From Labyrinthula sp. Ha (Eukaryota > Sar > Bigyra > Labyrinthulida > Labyrinthulaceae): DNA of 64,000 nucleotides. Positions within the stretch are counted from its first letter, which is position 1; each line of letters opens with the position of its first letter. Both the position numbers and the translations under genes were made by a program. Location: assembly GCA_015227615.1 (NCBI GenBank), contig JAALGZ010000061.1:89398-153397 (forward strand), in the 5' to 3' direction. The notes beneath the pieces were generated by a model that worked only from the letters and a program-made list of their open reading frames with translations, searched no databases and was not told the origin of the DNA. This document shows, piece by piece, positions 11,478-64,000 of this stretch.

Positions 11478-13993
11478 TCATCGAGAGAATCTTTCTCTTT
11501 TTTCTTGTTCAAGTATATTTTTCTCTTCGACCATATCTTGAATTCGAATCCAAAGTAAACTATTTATTCTATAGCCAAGATAATTAAAAACTAGTTTACT
11601 TTCTGTTTTCAAATAAATATCCAAAATAATATCAGGTGCAAAAATAAACCTAGCAAATGCTTTGAACACAAATGACTCTTTGATATCAACTTCTTCTAAA
11701 AACCAACAGATAATTCTTGTGAAAGCAACTAAACTTATTGGATGTCCAAAATTAATTTCTCTTCTGTTTCCATTAAGAAAATTAAACCTCGAATCTTTTA
11801 CTTCAGGAAGTAATTCTGGAACAATAAAACTGTTTTTTTCTCTTGGATAAACAAATAGAATTAAACTATGTAAAGCTAAGCTTAAAACATATTCTCTTTC
11901 ATTTTTTGTGTATTGTTTTAATAAAACTTCAAATAAGTCTTTTCTTAATATTCCAAAATCAATATATTTTCTATAATTTGAAAATACTTTTTTATTTGTT
12001 CTAAAAGCAAGTTGATGAAAACTTTCATCACGAATAAAACTTCCCAGAGCTTGAGCTAAAAAAGAAGGTGCAAAAAATATAAAATTTTCACTTTCAGATA
12101 AATTTATATCTTTGAAATAAGAAATTATTCCTTCTTCAGAATATATTTCTAACATTTCTTCCATTTCCTCTTCAGAAAAGTTACATTTTTTTGCTTTTAG
12201 TTTAAACTTTTCAAGTGTCATATAATTTGATTCTTCACGACAATTATCCAAAAATAATACATAAACAGATTTGATCAATATACTTCGATCTGATAGGTTA
12301 TCTTTGTTCATTAACTTCTCTTTTATTTCATTCTCACGACTCTTCTTAGAATTAATGGCGTTTTCAACAGGAAAAAAAATAGTTTCTTTATCTTCAAAAA
12401 GATTTAAATTCCCAGAAAGTTCAGAAATAAAGGATTCAAACAAAGAAATTACACTCTCAAGGTTTTTATTTTTCTTTAAGAAAGTATTTAAAAACGTTCC
12501 AATAAATGAAATTGGTGCTTTTGGAGTATTTCTTAAAATACTTTCGCACCAAAATTTAAGTCTAAGTAAATCTTTTTCTTTTAACTTTGTCAAATTAAAA
12601 ACAACTAAATAAATAGCTTTTTTATTCATAAAAATATGATGAACTGAAGAAAAAACTTCTTGTCCACCAAAATCATAAACACGTAAAAAAGAATCATAAG
12701 TTCTAAAATCCGAAGACACATAAGTTGTATATTGTTCAACAAAACTTTTCTCTCTTACAGTTCTCGTAATCAACTCATCTTCAAAATCTATGTTATATCT
12801 TGACTCTTCTTGAACTACATTTCCAATACTATATTGAATTTTCAACATATTCTTTACTCTTTGAACGGTCAGATTATATTTTGCAAGTGGTTTAAACTTA
12901 TTGTAAGAGTCAACTTGAAATATTTGATAATCTTCCAAGACTAAAGTAGATTGAGTTTCTTTTTGAAAACTTTTTCCAGATAAGTTTCTTAATAAAGAAG
13001 TTTTTCCAGTTCTTCCATCACCTAAAAATAAAACTAAATTGAATAAAATACCCAAAAGAATAAGTGGAACTTCTTTTAACGAACTTTTTTTCTCATATTG
13101 ACTTTGTAAAGCAGAATGAACAAGTTTTTTTAACATTTTACTCTTTCCTTTAAGTTCAATAAAACTTTGATAAATTTTAAGACCAATTATAGAAGGATGT
13201 GAATCAACTATTTCTTGTAACTCAATAATATTTTCTTCTTTTAGCTTTTTGGATTGGCGAGATCCAGAATATAATAAAATCTTTATTATTTTATTAGTTT
13301 TCAAGTAGTTTTTAATAGCTGAAATAATAACTTTATTTTGAACATCTTCTTCAATACTAAAAACTCAATATTCTAATAAGAAATACCGTATTTTTAAAAT
13401 TGTTTTATTAAAAGATAAACTTTTAAATGCATTTAATATATATATATTTCACTGAGTTTGTTTTTATATAGACTAAATAATAATATAAAATATTTTTACT
13501 CTATATCTTTTACATTGATTGATTTCAATAAACTGCAAAAGGAACTCACTTCAGGAATATTACAAAACTTTAACCTAAACTAAACATATAACAAAAATAT
13601 ACTGCAATCTATTCAGTTTCAAGATATTAAGTTGTTGAAGATTTTCATCACTGAATCTGCAATGCCAAAAACTAAAGTCAAGAAAACAAAATAAAATACT
13701 TGAGTACTTTCACAGCTGGAAAACAAAGAAAAAATCTTAAAAATATGGATTTAACAGCATCAAAGGGACAATATTCAAACCTAACATAAAGATAAAAGAA
13801 GATAGAATACAATATAATAGAAACTTCTTTATCTGGTTGGAACCCTTTGACAAACTCTGTTATCTCCCTATTAAACTGGTTTGGGTATCTACGATACTGT
13901 CCCCTTTGAATAATGTAGATACTTAAGATACCATTCAAATTTAAAGAATGCTTAATTATCTCTTTCTTCATATTTTTGTTTAATTGATTTCAT
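11478..13993 (-). pseudogene. LRR-ROC-COR gene, copy 1, probably inactive
   Basis: This is the paralogue of the gene at 35258-37800, with the same seven-exon layout: 13993-13932, 13903-13700, 13671-13603, 13574-13500, 13472-13387, 13356-13052 and 13021-11478. Two lesions are visible. Exon 1 has an in-frame TAA at 13954-13952. Exon 5 is 86 nt instead of 84, because an AT run gained two bases, giving a stop at 13435-13433. Exons 2 and 3 are shorter than in copy 2 by 12 and 9 nt but stay in frame. The last intron is 30 nt, so the frame reads through it, making a deceptive 608-codon open frame from TTG at 13304. Walker A (GDGRTGKTSLL) and DFGGQE are intact. An alternative ATG at 13971 bypasses the first stop if intron 1 is retained, but the exon 5 shift remains. 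A shortened ROC-COR product cannot be excluded. Confidence 0.8.
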
Positions 13994-35257: not shown

Positions 35258-37800
35258 TCATCGAGAGAATCTTTCTCTTTTTTCTTGTTCAAGTATATTT
35301 TTCTCTTCGACCATATCTTGAATTCGAATCCAAAGTAAACTATTTATTCTATAGCCAAGATAATTAAAAACTAGTTTACTTTCTGTTTTCAAATAAATAT
35401 CCAAAATAATATCAGGTGCAAAAATAAACCTAGCAAATGCTTTGAACACAAATGACTCTTTGATATCAACTTCTTCTAAAAACCAACAGATAATTCTTGT
35501 GAAAGCAACTAAACTTATTGGATGTCCAAAATTAATTTCTCTTCTGTTTCCATTAAGAAAATTAAACCTCGAATCTTTTACTTCAGGAAGTAATTCTGGA
35601 ACAATAAAACTGTTTTTTTCTCTTGGATAAACAAATAGAATTAAACTATGTAAAGCTAAGCTTAAAACATATTCTCTTTCATTTTTTGTGTATTGTTTTA
35701 ATAAAACTTCAAATAAGTCTTTTCTTAATATTCCAAAATCAATATATTTTCTATAATTTGAAAATACTTTTTTATTTGTTCTAAAAGCAAGTTGATGAAA
35801 ACTTTCATCACGAATAAAACTTCCCAGAGCTTGAGCTAAAAAAGAAGGTGCAAAAAATATAAAATTTTCACTTTCAGATAAATTTATATCTTTGAAATAA
35901 GAAATTATTCCTTCTTCAGAATATATTTCTAACATTTCTTCCATTTCCTCTTCAGAAAAGTTACATTTTTTTGCTTTTAGTTTAAACTTTTCAAGTGTCA
36001 TATAATTTGATTCTTCACGACAATTATCCAAAAATAATACATAAACAGATTTGATCAATATACTTCGATCTGATAGGTTATCTTTGTTCATTAACTTCTC
36101 TTTTATTTCATTCTCACGACTCTTCTTAGAATTAATGGCGTTTTCAACAGGAAAAAAAATAGTTTCTTTATCTTCAAAAAGATTTAAATTCCCAGAAAGT
36201 TCAGAAATAAAGGATTCAAACAAAGAAATTACACTCTCAAGGTTTTTATTTTTCTTTAAGAAAGTATTTAAAAACGTTCCAATAAATGAAATTGGTGCTT
36301 TTGGAGTATTTCTTAAAATACTTTCGCACCAAAATTTAAGTCTAAGTAAATCTTTTTCTTTTAACTTTGTCAAATTAAAAACAACTAAATAAATAGCTTT
36401 TTTATTCATAAAAATATGATGAACTGAAGAAAAAACTTCTTGTCCACCAAAATCATAAACACGTAAAAAAGAATCATAAGTTCTAAAATCCGAAGACACA
36501 TAAGTTGTATATTGTTCAACAAAACTTTTCTCTCTTACAGTTCTCGTAATCAACTCATCTTCAAAATCTATGTTATATCTTGACTTTTCTTGAACTTCAT
36601 CTTGAATAAAATAATAAATATGCAACATATTCTTTACTCTTTGCACACTTAGATCATATTTTGTAAGTGGTTCAAACTTATTCCAAATGTGGTTAACTTG
36701 AAATATTTGATAATCTTCCAAAACTAAAGTAGATTGTGTTTCTTTTTGAAAAGTCTTTCCTGTCAAATTTCTTAATAATGAAGTTTTTCCAGTTCTTCCA
36801 TCACCTAAGAAATAAGACTAAACTGAATAAAATACCCAAAAGAATAAGTGGAACTTCTTTTAACGAACTTTTTTTCTCATATTGACTTTGTAAAGCAGAA
36901 TGAACAAGTTCTTTTAACATTTTACTCTTTCCTTTAAGTTCAATAAAACTTTGATAAATTTTAAGACCAATTATAGAAGGATGTGAATCAACTATTTCTT
37001 GTAACTCAATAATATTTTCTTCTTTTAGCTTTTTGGATTGGCGAGATCCAGAATATAATAAAATCTTTATTATTTTATTAGTTTTCAAGTAGTTTTTAAT
37101 AGCTGAAATAATAACTTTATTTTGAACATCTTCTTCAATACTAAAAACTCAATATTCTAATAAGAAATACTCTATTTTTAAAATTGTTTTATTAAAACAT
37201 AAATTTTTAAATATATTTGATATATATTTTGCACTGAATTTGTTTTCATATAGTCTAAATAATAATATAAAATATTTTTACTTTATATCTTTTACACTGA
37301 TTGATTTCAATAAACTGCAAAAAGAACTCACTTCAGGAATATTACAGTACTCAAACCTAAACTAAAAATATAAAAAAATACATACTTCAACATATTCAGT
37401 TTCAAGATTTTGATTTGTTTAAAGTTCTTAAAGTTGTCATCACTGAATGTGCAACTCAAAAAACTAAAGTAAAGAAAAGATAATAAAATACTTGAGTTTT
37501 TTCAAAGCTGGAAAACAAAGGATAAATCTAATAAAAATAGATTCAACAGCATCAACAGGACAATCTTTAAACCTAACATAAGAATAAAAGAAGATTGAAT
37601 ACTTTATAATAGAAACTTCTTTATCTGGTTGGAACCCTTTTACAAACTCTTTTATCTCCGTTTTGAACTGGTTTGGGTTTATTGGGTTTCCATATGCATC
37701 GCGTTCCCTTTGAATAATTTAGTTACTTAAGATACCATTCAATAATAAAGTCTGTTTTATAATCTCTTTCTTCATATTCTTGTTGTATTGATTTCATCAT
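35258..37800 (-). CDS. LRR-ROC-COR (ROCO family) protein, 7 exons
   Basis: Exons are 37800-37736, 37707-37492, 37463-37386, 37356-37282, 37254-37171, 37140-36836 and 36804-35258. The six introns are 28, 28, 29, 27, 30 and 31 nt, all GTA...AG. The spliced frame is unbroken and gives 789 residues. Residues about 20-270 form leucine-rich repeats (ALKKL, QIKILKLN, CNIPEVSSFCSLLKSI). A ROC GTPase domain follows: Walker A GDGRTGKTSL at 275-284, switch motif DFGGQE at 392-397, and a G4-like FIGTFLN. COR fills the rest to 789. No kinase or WD40 follows. ROCO proteins are GTP-regulated dimeric switches, and the LRRs usually sense a ligand or partner. The last intron splits the first Gly of Walker A. 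Without splicing it looks like a frameshift. A second ATG lies at 37797. Confidence 0.88.
36805..36835 (-). other. 31-nt intron inside the Walker A glycine codon
   Basis: Donor GTATTTTATT, acceptor TTTCTTAG. Excision joins LILLG to DGRTGKT in frame. The matching intron in copy 1 (13022-13051) is 30 nt and so does not break the frame, which hides it. Confidence 0.85.
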
Positions 37801-59025: not shown

Positions 59026-60856
59026 ATGGAAGCAATCGCAATCCACAGGTAATACAATTTTTATTACTGATTGACTAGATTTATCGCTATTCAAAAAGGA
59101 GACCTAACCTTTGCTAAAGGAGATAAAATTGTTGTGCTGGAAAAACTTGTATGTTTAATCTCGTGTTCTTAATCTACAGGAAGAAGAAGGATGGTGGTTT
59201 GGTAAAACTGAGGATGGAAAACAAGGAATATTCCCTTATAATCGAGTTAAAATAACTGAAAGCCAGCCAAAGGAAAGCCGTAAAATACTGGGTGCAACAG
59301 TACACGCTTTAGAATCTGGTTCCTTTGAAATAAACGTAATTCTGGGCTCTAACAAAAGGATAAAACAAGAGAAAGATCTATGGGCTGTAAAGACATTATC
59401 TACGGTAGTGAGGTGTAAAATTAGTTTATTAACTCCTGATTGGGCTCTTCATTTACCAGTGAAGAAGAAGTTCTTGCCTGAAAGAGAGGAAAATGTGAAT
59501 AATATAATTCAGGACGTTTTAAAACAAAAAGAAAATGAGGATACCTTTTTATATTGGTTAGATCCAGCTGAAGCTTCAAAGCATGGAATAGGGGAAACTG
59601 AATTAAATCAGTTTATGTCTATGTTCAAAAGATTTAGTACAGCAAGTCCTATGCCCGGAAATGATGGAATACAGTTGGCACAAGTTACCTTTGAGTGGTT
59701 TGCAAGAGATAAAGAAGAGATGTCTGCGTTGGTGGGTGAGTTTGTTGAAATTATATCTGTTGATATTGCGTTTAAAGGATGGTCTACGGTAAAAAATGTA
59801 GTTGGAAAAGAAGGTTTGATTCCAAGTAATTATTACAATTTGATTGAGGATCACAAGGTTAAAGATGATTTTTTTAAAGGAGGGAATAATCTGTTGCGTC
59901 GATTACCTACTCTAAACCCTCCAGAAGAAAAGCTACCGAATCAGAGCACAATGAAATCGCAAACTGATCAAAATTATGAAGTCCAAGAGGATCAAAGAGC
60001 CATGAGTTCTATTAAGAATGTTTCAGTAGGAAAACCAAAACCAAGGAAAAGACAAAAATATTTGCGGTTTGCTTTGAATAGTGTTGAAAAGTTTGAAGAA
60101 CTGTTTGAGACACATTTTGCCATAGATTTTTGGGAAAAAGCTGTTCAAGCACAGTCAGCATCAACTCCAAAGAATATGGATACGGTCACCTTGAATTTTA
60201 ATGCCTTCATATTTGAACCCCAAAAGCAAAGTATACTTGAATTTCTATCTAGTGATGTACTTTTGGATAATCTAGAGCTAAAAGCTGGAGAAAAAGCTGA
60301 AAATACTATTACTAGTGGGAAGCCTTTAGTTTTTCAAGTAGGCACAGATGCAGTGATTGACGGATTAGACAGAGCTGTGAAGATGATGCACGTTGGAGAT
60401 TCCTTAAGGGTTGTTCTGGGACCGAGATTAGCTTACTCAGACATTGGAGCAAGACCAATTATTCCTCCGAATGCCATTTTGTTGTATGATTTATACCTTG
60501 TAGATATTCAGCCGAGAAATGAACTAAAAGTTGCGCTTAGACCAAATGTGCTGCCAATGGGAATTATGAAGTCAGTTATTATGGAAAGGTTACCCAACCA
60601 TAATGGACAGAAACCAAAAAAGCGAGGAAAACAAAAAGCAACTGTTAGAGAGTTTAAGGGATATTTTAGTTACCCGGAGTTGTTAAAGATAATAGAAAAG
60701 CAGGAATTTGATCAATATGGAATATTACCTGGAATCATAGAAGAATATTTACGGAAAGATGAGTTTAAGAAGGTATTTGGAATGACGTTTGAAAAGTTTT
60801 CAAAGTTAAGTCCTAAGCAGAAAGATCAGCGCAGAAAGAAGGCGAACTTGTGGTAG
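59026..60856 (+). CDS. SH3-SH3-FKBP-villin headpiece multidomain protein, 3 exons
   Basis: Exons are 59026-59048, 59079-59148 and 59180-60856, with introns of 30 and 31 nt. The product is 589 residues. The first two introns fall inside SH3 domain 1, which is only complete after splicing: residues 2-55, ending GDLTFAKGDKIVV, GWWFGKTEDGKQG and IFPYNRV. SH3 domain 2 is about 197-254 (VTFEWFARDKEEMS to GLIPSNYYNLIE). An FKBP-type fold is about 363-474 (VFQVG...VIDGLDRAVKMMHVGD...LAYSDIGARPIIPPNAI). The FKBP tryptophan is Leu and the YTG/FDSS strands are altered, so isomerase activity is doubtful. Residues about 524-589 match a villin headpiece (FSYPELLK, YLRKDEFKKVFGMTFEKF). Known roles suggest a cortical actin adaptor: the headpiece binds F-actin and the SH3 domains bind Pro-rich partners. 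I know of no named protein with this order. Confidence 0.9.
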
Positions 60857-61634: not shown

Positions 61635-64000
61635 CTAAAGACGAAACATCCTGAGGAGCCTCATTGTGTTCGAACCAAGGGTTGGGGATTTGGTTGGTGA
61701 AGCTGTTGGTGTAAATGTTGGCGAGCTAGTTGGTGTAGATGTGGGCACTGCAGTAGGGCTTCCCGTGGGCGTTAATGTTGGTGACTCCGTCGGTGTTTCT
61801 GTTGGTGTTGCAGTAGGGGAAGACGTAGGAGCCGCAGTCGGACTGGCAGTAGGAGATCCCGTCGGGCTCGCAGTTGGTGATGTGGTAGGAGATGCTGTTG
61901 GACTTACAGTAGGTGAAACAGTTGGACTCATAGTTGGAGATGTAGTTGGTGATGTTGTGGGTGAGACAGTAGGTGAAACAGTTGGACTAACAGTCGGAGA
62001 TGTAGTTGGTGATGTGGTAGGAGATGCTGTTGGACTTACAGTAGGTGAAACAGTTGGACTCATAGTCGGAGATGTAGTTGGTGATGTTGTGGGAGATGCT
62101 GTTGGACTTGCAGTAGGTGAAACAGTTGGACTAACAGTCGGAGATGTAGTTGGTGATGTTGTGGGTGAAACAGTAGGTGAAACAGTTGGACTAACAGTCG
62201 GAGATGTAGTTGGTGATGTGGTAGGAGATGCTGTTGGACTTACAGTAGGTGAAACAGTTGGACTCATAGTTGGAGATGTAGTTGGTGATGTTGTAGGAGA
62301 TGCTGTTGGACTTACAGTAGGTGAAACAGTTGGACTCATAGTTGGAGATGTAGTTGGTGATGTTGTGGGTGAAACAGTTGGACTAACAGTCGGAGATGTA
62401 GTTGGCGATGTGGTAGGAGATGCTGTTGGACTTACAGTAGGTGAAACAGTTGGACTCATAGTTGGTGATGTGGTAGGAGATGCTGTTGGACTTACAGTAG
62501 GTGAAACAGTTGGACTAATAGTCGGAGATGTAGTTGGTGATGTTGTAGGAGATGCTGTTGGACTTACAGTAGGTGAAACAGTTGGACTCATAGTTGGTGA
62601 TGTGGTAGGAGATGCTGTTGGACTTACAGTAGGTGAAACAGTTGGACTCATAGTTGGAGATGTAGTTGGTGATGTTGTAGGTGAGACAGTAGGTGAAACA
62701 GTAGGTGAAACAGTTGGACTCATAGTTGGAGATGTAGTTGGTGATGTTGTGGGTGAGACAGTAGGTGAAACAGTTGGACTAATAGTCGGAGATGTAGTTG
62801 GCGATGTGGTAGGAGATGCTGTTGGACTTACAGTAGGTGAAACAGTTGGACTAACAGTCGGAGATGTAGTTGGCGATGTGGTAGGAGATGCTGTTGGACT
62901 TACAGTAGGTGAAACAGTTGGACTCATAGTTGGTGATGTTGTAGGTGAGACAGTAGGTGAAACAGTTGGACTCATAGTTGGAGATGTAGTTGGTGATGTT
63001 GTAGGTGAAACAGTAGGTGAAACAGTTGGACTCATAGTTGGAGATGTAGTTGGAGATGTAGTTGGTGATGTTGTAGGTGAGACAGTAGGTGAAACAGTTG
63101 GACTCATAGTTGGAGATGTAGTTGGTGATGTTGTGGGTGAAACAGTTGGACTAACAGTCGGAGATGTAGTTGGCGATGTGGTAGGAGATGCTGTTGGACT
63201 TACAGTAGGTGAAACAGTTGGACTCATAGTTGGTGATGTGGTAGGAGATGCTGTTGGACTTACAGTAGGTGAAACAGTTGGACTCATAGTTGGAGATGTA
63301 GTTGGTGATGTTGTGGGTGAAACAGTAGGTGAAACAGTTGGACTAACAGTCGGAGATGTAGTTGGCGATGTGGTAGGAGATGCTGTTGGACTTACAGTAG
63401 GTGAAACAGTTGGACTAACAGTCGGAGATGTAGTTGGCGATGTGGTAGGAGATGCTGTTGGACTTACAGTAGGTGAAACAGTTGGACTCATAGTTGGAGA
63501 TGTAGTTGGTGATGTTGTGGGTGAAACAGTAGGTGAAACAGTTGGACTAACAGTCGGAGATGTAGTTGGTGATGTGGTAGGAGATGCTGTTGGACTTACA
63601 GTAGGTGAAACAGTTGGACTCATAGTTGGAGATGTAGTTGGTGATGTTGTAGGAGATGCTGTTGGACTTACAGTAGGTGAAACAGTTGGACTCATAGTTG
63701 GAGATGTAGTTGGTGATGTTGTAGGTGAGACAGTAGGTGAAACAGTTGGACTCATAGTTGGAGATGTAGTTGGTGATGTTGTGGGTGAAACAGTTGGACT
63801 AACAGTCGGAGATGTAGTTGGCGATGTGGTAGGAGATGCTGTTGGACTTACAGTAGGTGAAACAGTTGGACTCATAGTTGGAGATGTAGTTGGTGATGTT
63901 GTGGGTGAGACAGTAGGTGAAACAGTTGGACTAATAGTCGGAGATGTAGTTGGTGATGTTGTAGGAGATGCTGTTGGACTTACAGTAGGTGAAACAGTTG
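61635..64000 (-). CDS. Ser-Pro-Thr tetrapeptide repeat protein (C-terminal part)
   Basis: The frame is open from the right edge to the TAG at 61637-61635, about 788 residues visible; the N-terminus lies outside the window. Almost all of it is SPTx with x = V, A, T, M or I. Towards the C-terminus the units become varied ([15 protein letters not shown] and similar), and the protein ends [17 protein letters not shown] with no membrane anchor or GPI signal visible. Such mucin-like repeats are usually secreted or at the cell surface, and the Ser/Thr beside Pro are typical sites for O-glycosylation. The visible part cannot show a signal peptide. It is convergent with the SH3-FKBP gene. Confidence 0.9.
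61855..64000 (-). repeat. 72-nt higher-order repeat inside the SPT gene
   Basis: The basic unit is 12 nt (SPTx). Six units in fixed order (V, V, A, T, T, M) form a 72-nt block that recurs with the same synonymous codons at each position. Shorter variants lack the A unit or one T unit, or carry I or V in place of M. This shows unequal exchange at the level of whole blocks. The array continues past the window edge. Confidence 0.92.

Follow-up and report, generated by a model that had tools for sequence, protein, structure and literature searches.

The window analyzed here is a 64,000-nucleotide stretch of contig C112, and the gene under study occupies positions 59026..60856 of its forward strand. 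The gene opens with an ATG at 59026, closes with a stop codon at 60854-60856 and comprises 589 codons once both introns are removed; we refer to its protein as the window copy. Its exons, introns and protein regions, with residues (aa) numbered along the spliced product, are as follows.

59026..59048, forward strand: exon 1, with the start codon and the first strand of the first SH3 domain (SH3-1); the intron position is common to the C1 and C121 paralogs
59049..59078, forward strand: intron 1, 30 nt, GT..AG, phase 2; same place and phase in three of five paralogs
59079..59148, forward strand: exon 2, middle part of SH3-1
59149..59179, forward strand: intron 2, 31 nt, GT..AG, phase 0; conserved in position and phase in all five paralogs
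59180..60856, forward strand: exon 3, a single open frame that begins midway through SH3-1 and ends at the stop codon
59026..59251, forward strand: SH3-1, aa 1-55, spanning both introns; Pfam SH3_1/SH3_9 from aa 4-5 to 50-55
59282..59575, forward strand: degenerate PX-like region, aa ~66-163, flanked by the two SH3 domains and identified by alignment with the corresponding PX-like part of the paralogs
59675..59851, forward strand: second SH3 domain (SH3-2), aa ~197-255; second Pfam SH3 stretch, with limits set by eye from a five-protein alignment
60068..60517, forward strand: FKBP-type domain with an altered cleft, aa ~328-477; Pfam FKBP_C at 398-471
60647..60853, forward strand: villin-headpiece-like domain with replacements at actin-face residues, aa 521-589; Pfam VHP at 554-589

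Splicing the sequence reproduced exactly the gene model of a first-pass annotation of this DNA, which had placed introns at 59049-59078 and 59149-59179 and predicted a 589-residue product. Without splicing, the reading meets in-frame stops inside intron 1 and has its frame broken by intron 2, and exon 3 alone runs stop-free for 558 codons, an outcome with a probability of ~4e-21 at this base composition. Pfam searches of the spliced product, which the annotation had proposed as a check, returned SH3 twice, FKBP_C and, at borderline strength, the villin headpiece (VHP); the spliced frame and these domains together support its view of a single multi-domain, apparently adaptor-like protein. The possibility that the SH3 exons and the FKBP/headpiece part belong to separate mRNAs can be addressed in part from the exon structure. 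Given that all residues after the 31st lie in exon 3, SH3-2, FKBP and headpiece would share one mRNA as long as this exon is not divided, leaving only the first 31 residues outside it.

Searching the 153 contigs (50.8 Mb) of the assembly to which the window belongs with the protein sequence recovered four more multi-module loci, on contigs C132, C1, C121 and C46, with gene models of 657, 507, 591 and 579 residues, respectively. By Pfam, all five proteins are comprised of SH3 - middle region - SH3 - FKBP, and a headpiece is found at the end of the window copy and the C132 protein only. The four paralogs are 24-26% identical to the window protein over 490-679 aligned columns, and C132 and C46 share 38-39% identity. 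The gene structure follows from comparison of the five genes, all of which have a phase-0 intron just 5' of the W-W pair of SH3-1 (31 nt in the window gene, 77 in C132, 78 in C1, 30 in C121 and 103 in C46), and three of which have a phase-2 intron near codon 7-10 (window 30, C1 28 and C121 94 nt). Six of the ten modeled introns are 28-31 nt long. We infer the intron ends from splice sites picked by eye, the frame break at intron 2 being forced in each gene. In the five-protein tree, branches are long, the window copy sits on a long branch (1.54) and the join of C112w, the window copy, with C1 is flagged as possibly false.

These paralogs do not support the earlier impression of a one-off fusion, as they repeat the architecture and define a family of genes in which an FKBP fold is joined to SH3/PX-like scaffolding and a headpiece is added in two members. 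That unrelated exons were joined by an error of the gene model or the assembly, for which nothing speaks except the odd combination of modules, is barely conceivable, given that one exon holds all but the first 31 residues and that the order SH3 - middle - SH3 - FKBP recurs at four loci on four other contigs. The combination is a new one of known modules. The first-pass annotation could not match it to a named protein, and no report of an SH3 - PX-like - SH3 - FKBP - headpiece architecture was found in the open-licence PMC literature among the matches listed. Searches with short exact peptide patterns, which detect close relatives only, returned no relatives of the C132 protein in viral contigs or prokaryote genomes, and none of the five-protein alignment in viral contigs. 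The family accounts for five of the genome's FKBP loci, with FKBP matches in at least 12 stretches of the genome, and its intact, worn and absent headpieces provide a natural comparison of the role of each module.

The two SH3 domains read earlier from the translation are recovered by Pfam SH3_1, which matches the window copy in two stretches at 71.3 bits (cut-off 22.9); C132, C1, C121 and C46 score 84.6, 61.9, 66.7 and 70.9 bits, respectively, and with SH3_9 the window copy's 54.6 bits is the lowest among the five. The first Trp of the SH3-1 W-W pair and the SH3-2 Trp are retained in all five proteins. The ligand pocket of SH3 domains comprises the first Tyr of the ALYDY motif, a Trp, a Pro and the Tyr of the NYV motif, positions occupied in the window copy by H, W, P and R in SH3-1 and by F, W, P and Y in SH3-2. 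Given the changes of the ALYDY Tyr to His and the NYV Tyr to Arg, the binding of SH3-1 may be weak.

The region between the SH3 domains was overlooked by the first-pass annotation, which listed SH3, SH3, FKBP and headpiece as the only modules. Pfam PX finds no match in the window copy at E<=1 and none in the C1 and C121 proteins, scores 13.1 bits in C46, and gives two values for C132, 20.2 bits with the protein, below the cut-off of 21.6, and 24.4 bits, above it, when the genome is scanned. A profile of the five regions matched seven PDB sequences at E<=5, all with E values of 0.045-1.3; five are BEM3, a designed CISK-PX and sorting nexins 25, 16 and 27, and the other two are chains from a single entry labelled only 'cellular trafficking protein'. 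The C132 region alone matched three at E<=5, Nischarin (0.34), a NEDD4-like ligase (0.72) and sorting nexin 16 (0.97). The ligase match lends no support to a PX identity. When six further PX stretches of the genome were combined into a profile for comparison by hhalign, the family region gave 57%, the full-length family alignment 19% (placed on the same region) and the window copy plus C1 16%. In the alignment, the (R/K)RY motif before the conserved Phe is missing from all five family members; it is present in six of ten other PX stretches of this genome (ten of 15 matches). The conserved Phe itself is kept by the other four members and lost from the window copy, and a PxxP motif occurs in the region in C132 and C46. 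We call the middle region PX-like, its PX identity appearing weak on these comparisons.

SH3 and PX or PX-like modules are also combined in p47phox/NoxO1, Tks4/5 and yeast Bem1, which are non-enzymatic organizers, as the present family also appears to be. The family resembles such scaffolds in the PxxP of the C132 and C46 PX-like regions and differs from them in its SH3-PX-SH3 order, its extra FKBP and headpiece, and its weak PX lacking (R/K)RY. An NADPH-oxidase organizer of the p47phox/Bem1 kind, whose SH3 and PX modules would assemble an oxidase or polarity complex, is another reading, as the two module types occur together and the genome scan holds four NAD_binding_6 matches, two of them in 1039- and 1040-aa frames on contig C79. 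We nevertheless attach very little probability to it, as NAD_binding_6 is not confined to NADPH oxidases and so is unspecific for them, neither PB1 nor p47_phox_C was found by Pfam in the window copy (E<=1) or the four paralogs (E<=5), and we know of no counterpart of the FKBP or headpiece in organizers of this type. The main text of a paper on PX architectures (PMC2837644) names neither FKBP nor villin.

The FKBP_C match of the window copy reaches 52.7 bits (cut-off 21.1), compared with 61.8 in C132, 48.7 in C1 and 33.7 in C121, and the best PDB match of the FKBP part is wheat FKBP (3jym; whole-sequence E 3.1e-18, best single stretch 8.7e-6). The cleft of an active FKBP isomerase is formed by Y26, F36, D37, F46, W59, Y82 and F99. 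In an alignment to FKBP12, the window copy has F, F, L, L, L, Y and Y at these positions. The altered active-site positions noticed earlier are thereby located and prove to be a family trait, with D37 replaced by L/A, R42 by S/Q, W59 by L and H87 by A/N/S in all five proteins. Y82 is retained in all five and Y26 in four, being Phe in the window copy, and the loop after residue 35 is longer in the family, which leaves the alignment place of R42 unsure. Compared with FKBP-type PPIases, the window copy shares the fold, framework residues and Y82, and differs at D37, R42 and H87 and in the lengthened loop. Passages of PMC3949516 report Leu, Ile or Met at position 59 in 14 of 22 human FKBP domains, so that W59L alone tells little, and also that some FKBP domains are inactive. 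With D37, R42 and H87 all replaced and the loop lengthened, the usual isomerase chemistry appears unlikely, and the replacement of D37, R42, W59 and H87 throughout the family suggests that non-catalytic binding is the likely activity.

At the C-terminus, VHP scores 25.7 bits in the whole window protein, under the cut-off of 27, and 31.5 bits in the genome scan, over it; the C132 protein scores 33.8 bits. Scored with a model trained on three further headpiece-like stretches of this genome, the window copy reached 16.3 bits, a value attained by none of 2000 shuffles of the protein, the best of which scored 9.0. Searched alone, the headpiece matched 25 PDB sequences at E<=1, led by ABLIM2, villin and dematin (E 0.0014-0.01), with two weak matches (E 0.24 and 0.97) to unrelated proteins. 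Structure prediction of the 558-aa frame alone gave a mean pLDDT of 32.4 and a pTM of 0.19, with residues 1-524 below 50, and only the last ~28 residues, within the headpiece, averaged pLDDT 65-75 and were helical. No gelsolin or LIM repeats, as found beside villin and ABLIM headpieces, were detected by Pfam in the window copy.

The window copy shares F47, F51 and F58 of the headpiece core with villin, dematin and ABLIM, and differs from them at W64, K65 and L69. The earlier description of a headpiece with a preserved core (KKVFGMTFEKF) therefore holds for the domain and its folding core but not for the actin-binding face. A role of W64 and K65 (villin numbering) in headpiece actin binding is described in a passage of PMC2879411. 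Under ungapped numbering, which is one choice of alignment, the window headpiece has W64 replaced by K, K65 by Q and L69 by R, keeps K71 and L75, and has R at K70 and another aromatic, W, at F76; a gapped phmmer alignment to villin places W64 opposite Q, K65 opposite K and L69 opposite R. The C132 headpiece (ungapped) retains W64, K65, L69, K70 and K71, such that the W64 cap and K65/K71 crown read K, Q, K in the window copy versus W, K, K in C132. The coupling of the window copy to F-actin proposed by the first-pass annotation is not supported by this comparison, as W64 and L69 are replaced in both alignments and K65 in the ungapped one; its F-actin binding appears doubtful, and an F-actin adaptor role would fit C132 better.

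It is thus unlikely, in our estimation, that the window copy is itself an active cytoskeletal adaptor whose headpiece binds F-actin and whose FKBP domain binds prolyl peptides. The sequence backs a headpiece fold, K71 and L75 are kept alongside the R at K70 and W at F76, and K65 is also kept under the gapped alignment, but the remaining actin-face replacements, and those of FKBP D37, R42 and H87, argue against both activities. Counted by hand on the five-protein tree, two independent gains of the headpiece cost 2 changes and an ancestral headpiece 3 losses. The window headpiece is identical to that of C132 at 16/68 positions and to a headpiece on contig C73 at 22/67, C132 being no closer. The C-terminus of C1, RSFKGF, has four residues identical to REFKGY of the window copy, which hints that it may be the remnant of a lost headpiece, in a match too short to count. 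The C73 headpiece (L001:1297-1611, forward strand; 41.1 bits) keeps W64, and its short frame has a Ser-rich frame upstream. Contig C64 carries a TPR-repeat protein (L028:1382-2932, forward strand) with a headpiece-like end that scores 17.9 bits with VHP, under the cut-off, and is without W64.

These replacements could also be read as decay, the window copy being a paralog on its way to a pseudogene. Its scores lie below those of C132 throughout (SH3_1 71.3 versus 84.6, FKBP_C 52.7 versus 61.8, VHP 25.7 versus 33.8 bits, and PX none versus 20.2), and its branch is long, at 1.54. However, its SH3_1 score of 71.3 exceeds those of C1 (61.9), C121 (66.7) and C46 (70.9), and its FKBP_C score of 52.7 those of C1 (48.7) and C121 (33.7). 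Moreover, 558 codons remain open in one exon (~4e-21), both GT..AG introns are intact, and the SH3 Trp and Pro and FKBP framework residues are kept. We give decay only a slim chance, and the long open frame and clean introns favor a diverged, working gene.

On balance we incline, without great assurance, to read the window gene as encoding a diverged, non-enzymatic scaffold or adaptor of a five-member SH3 - PX-like - SH3 - FKBP family, with weak or no direct binding to F-actin. Having kept the SH3 Trps and the FKBP fold and lost the actin face and most of the PX signature, the window copy is probably a diverged protein-binding scaffold. In the binding activities and cellular role that we infer from the domains, paralogs and residue replacements, the SH3 domains would hold proline-rich partners, the PX-like region would serve as a membrane-proximal or intramolecular SH3-docking module and not as a classical PI3P reader, and the FKBP fold would offer a surface for binding proteins and lack normal isomerase chemistry. 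In the C132 paralog, the headpiece may anchor the assembled partners to F-actin, which the window copy would bind directly only weakly or not at all.

An FKBP protein with a cytoskeletal connection offers a further comparison. FKBP15/WAFL has a WH1-like domain N-terminal to its FKBP and, to our knowledge, no SH3, PX or headpiece; unlike FKBP15/WAFL, none of the five proteins has a Pfam match to WH1. FKBP15/WAFL belongs to the endosomal actin system, and a passage of PMC4024763 calls its role there unclear.

The identity of the host bears on where such a family might act. Contig C99 holds a 1497-aa frame with two FabA dehydratase regions and PfaD (572 bits), that is, DH-DH-PfaD in one frame, and a PDB search with part of this frame returned seven sequences, bacterial-type FabA dehydratases and a fatty-acid synthase DH chain. 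We take this DH-DH-ER arrangement to be subunit C of the labyrinthulomycete PUFA synthase, and the gene suggests a labyrinthulomycete host, a single-celled eukaryote that is probably thraustochytrid-like. A photosynthetic host was rejected, as the genome search returned no LHC match. The ectoplasmic net of labyrinthulomycetes is actin-based and poorly known, and if the host is of this group, the family supplies candidates for its components. A more specific version, which we regard as quite improbable, would have a labyrinthulomycete-specific scaffold family organize the actin of the ectoplasmic net or of the net's membrane organelle; C132 would be its actin-anchored member, and the window copy would compete for the same partners without binding actin. 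The main text of an Aurantiochytrium ectoplasmic-net proteome (PMC12221091) mentions no FKBP, SH3, villin, gelsolin, PX domain or peptidyl-prolyl.

Several other frames were observed in the window and elsewhere in the assembly. On the reverse strand of the window, positions 61635-63998 hold a frame of Ser-Pro-Thr repeats, at least 787 aa long and with repeat periods including 60, 132 and 204 nt, which runs off the end of contig C112 at the last base of the window. Also on the reverse strand, frames at 11481-13364 and 35261-36817 have Roc and COR-A matches (Roco-like) and are mutually similar by eye, and 1163-3073 matches glutamate-cysteine ligase at 504.8 bits. The 1039- and 1040-aa NAD_binding_6 frames of contig C79 (L031 and L032) have equal scores, lie ~320 kb apart and may reflect a recent duplication. 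On contig C1, a series of frames (L029:1810-6000, forward strand) resembles a retroelement by eye; its locus was recovered because it weakly matches residues 512-574 of the window copy (E 0.26).
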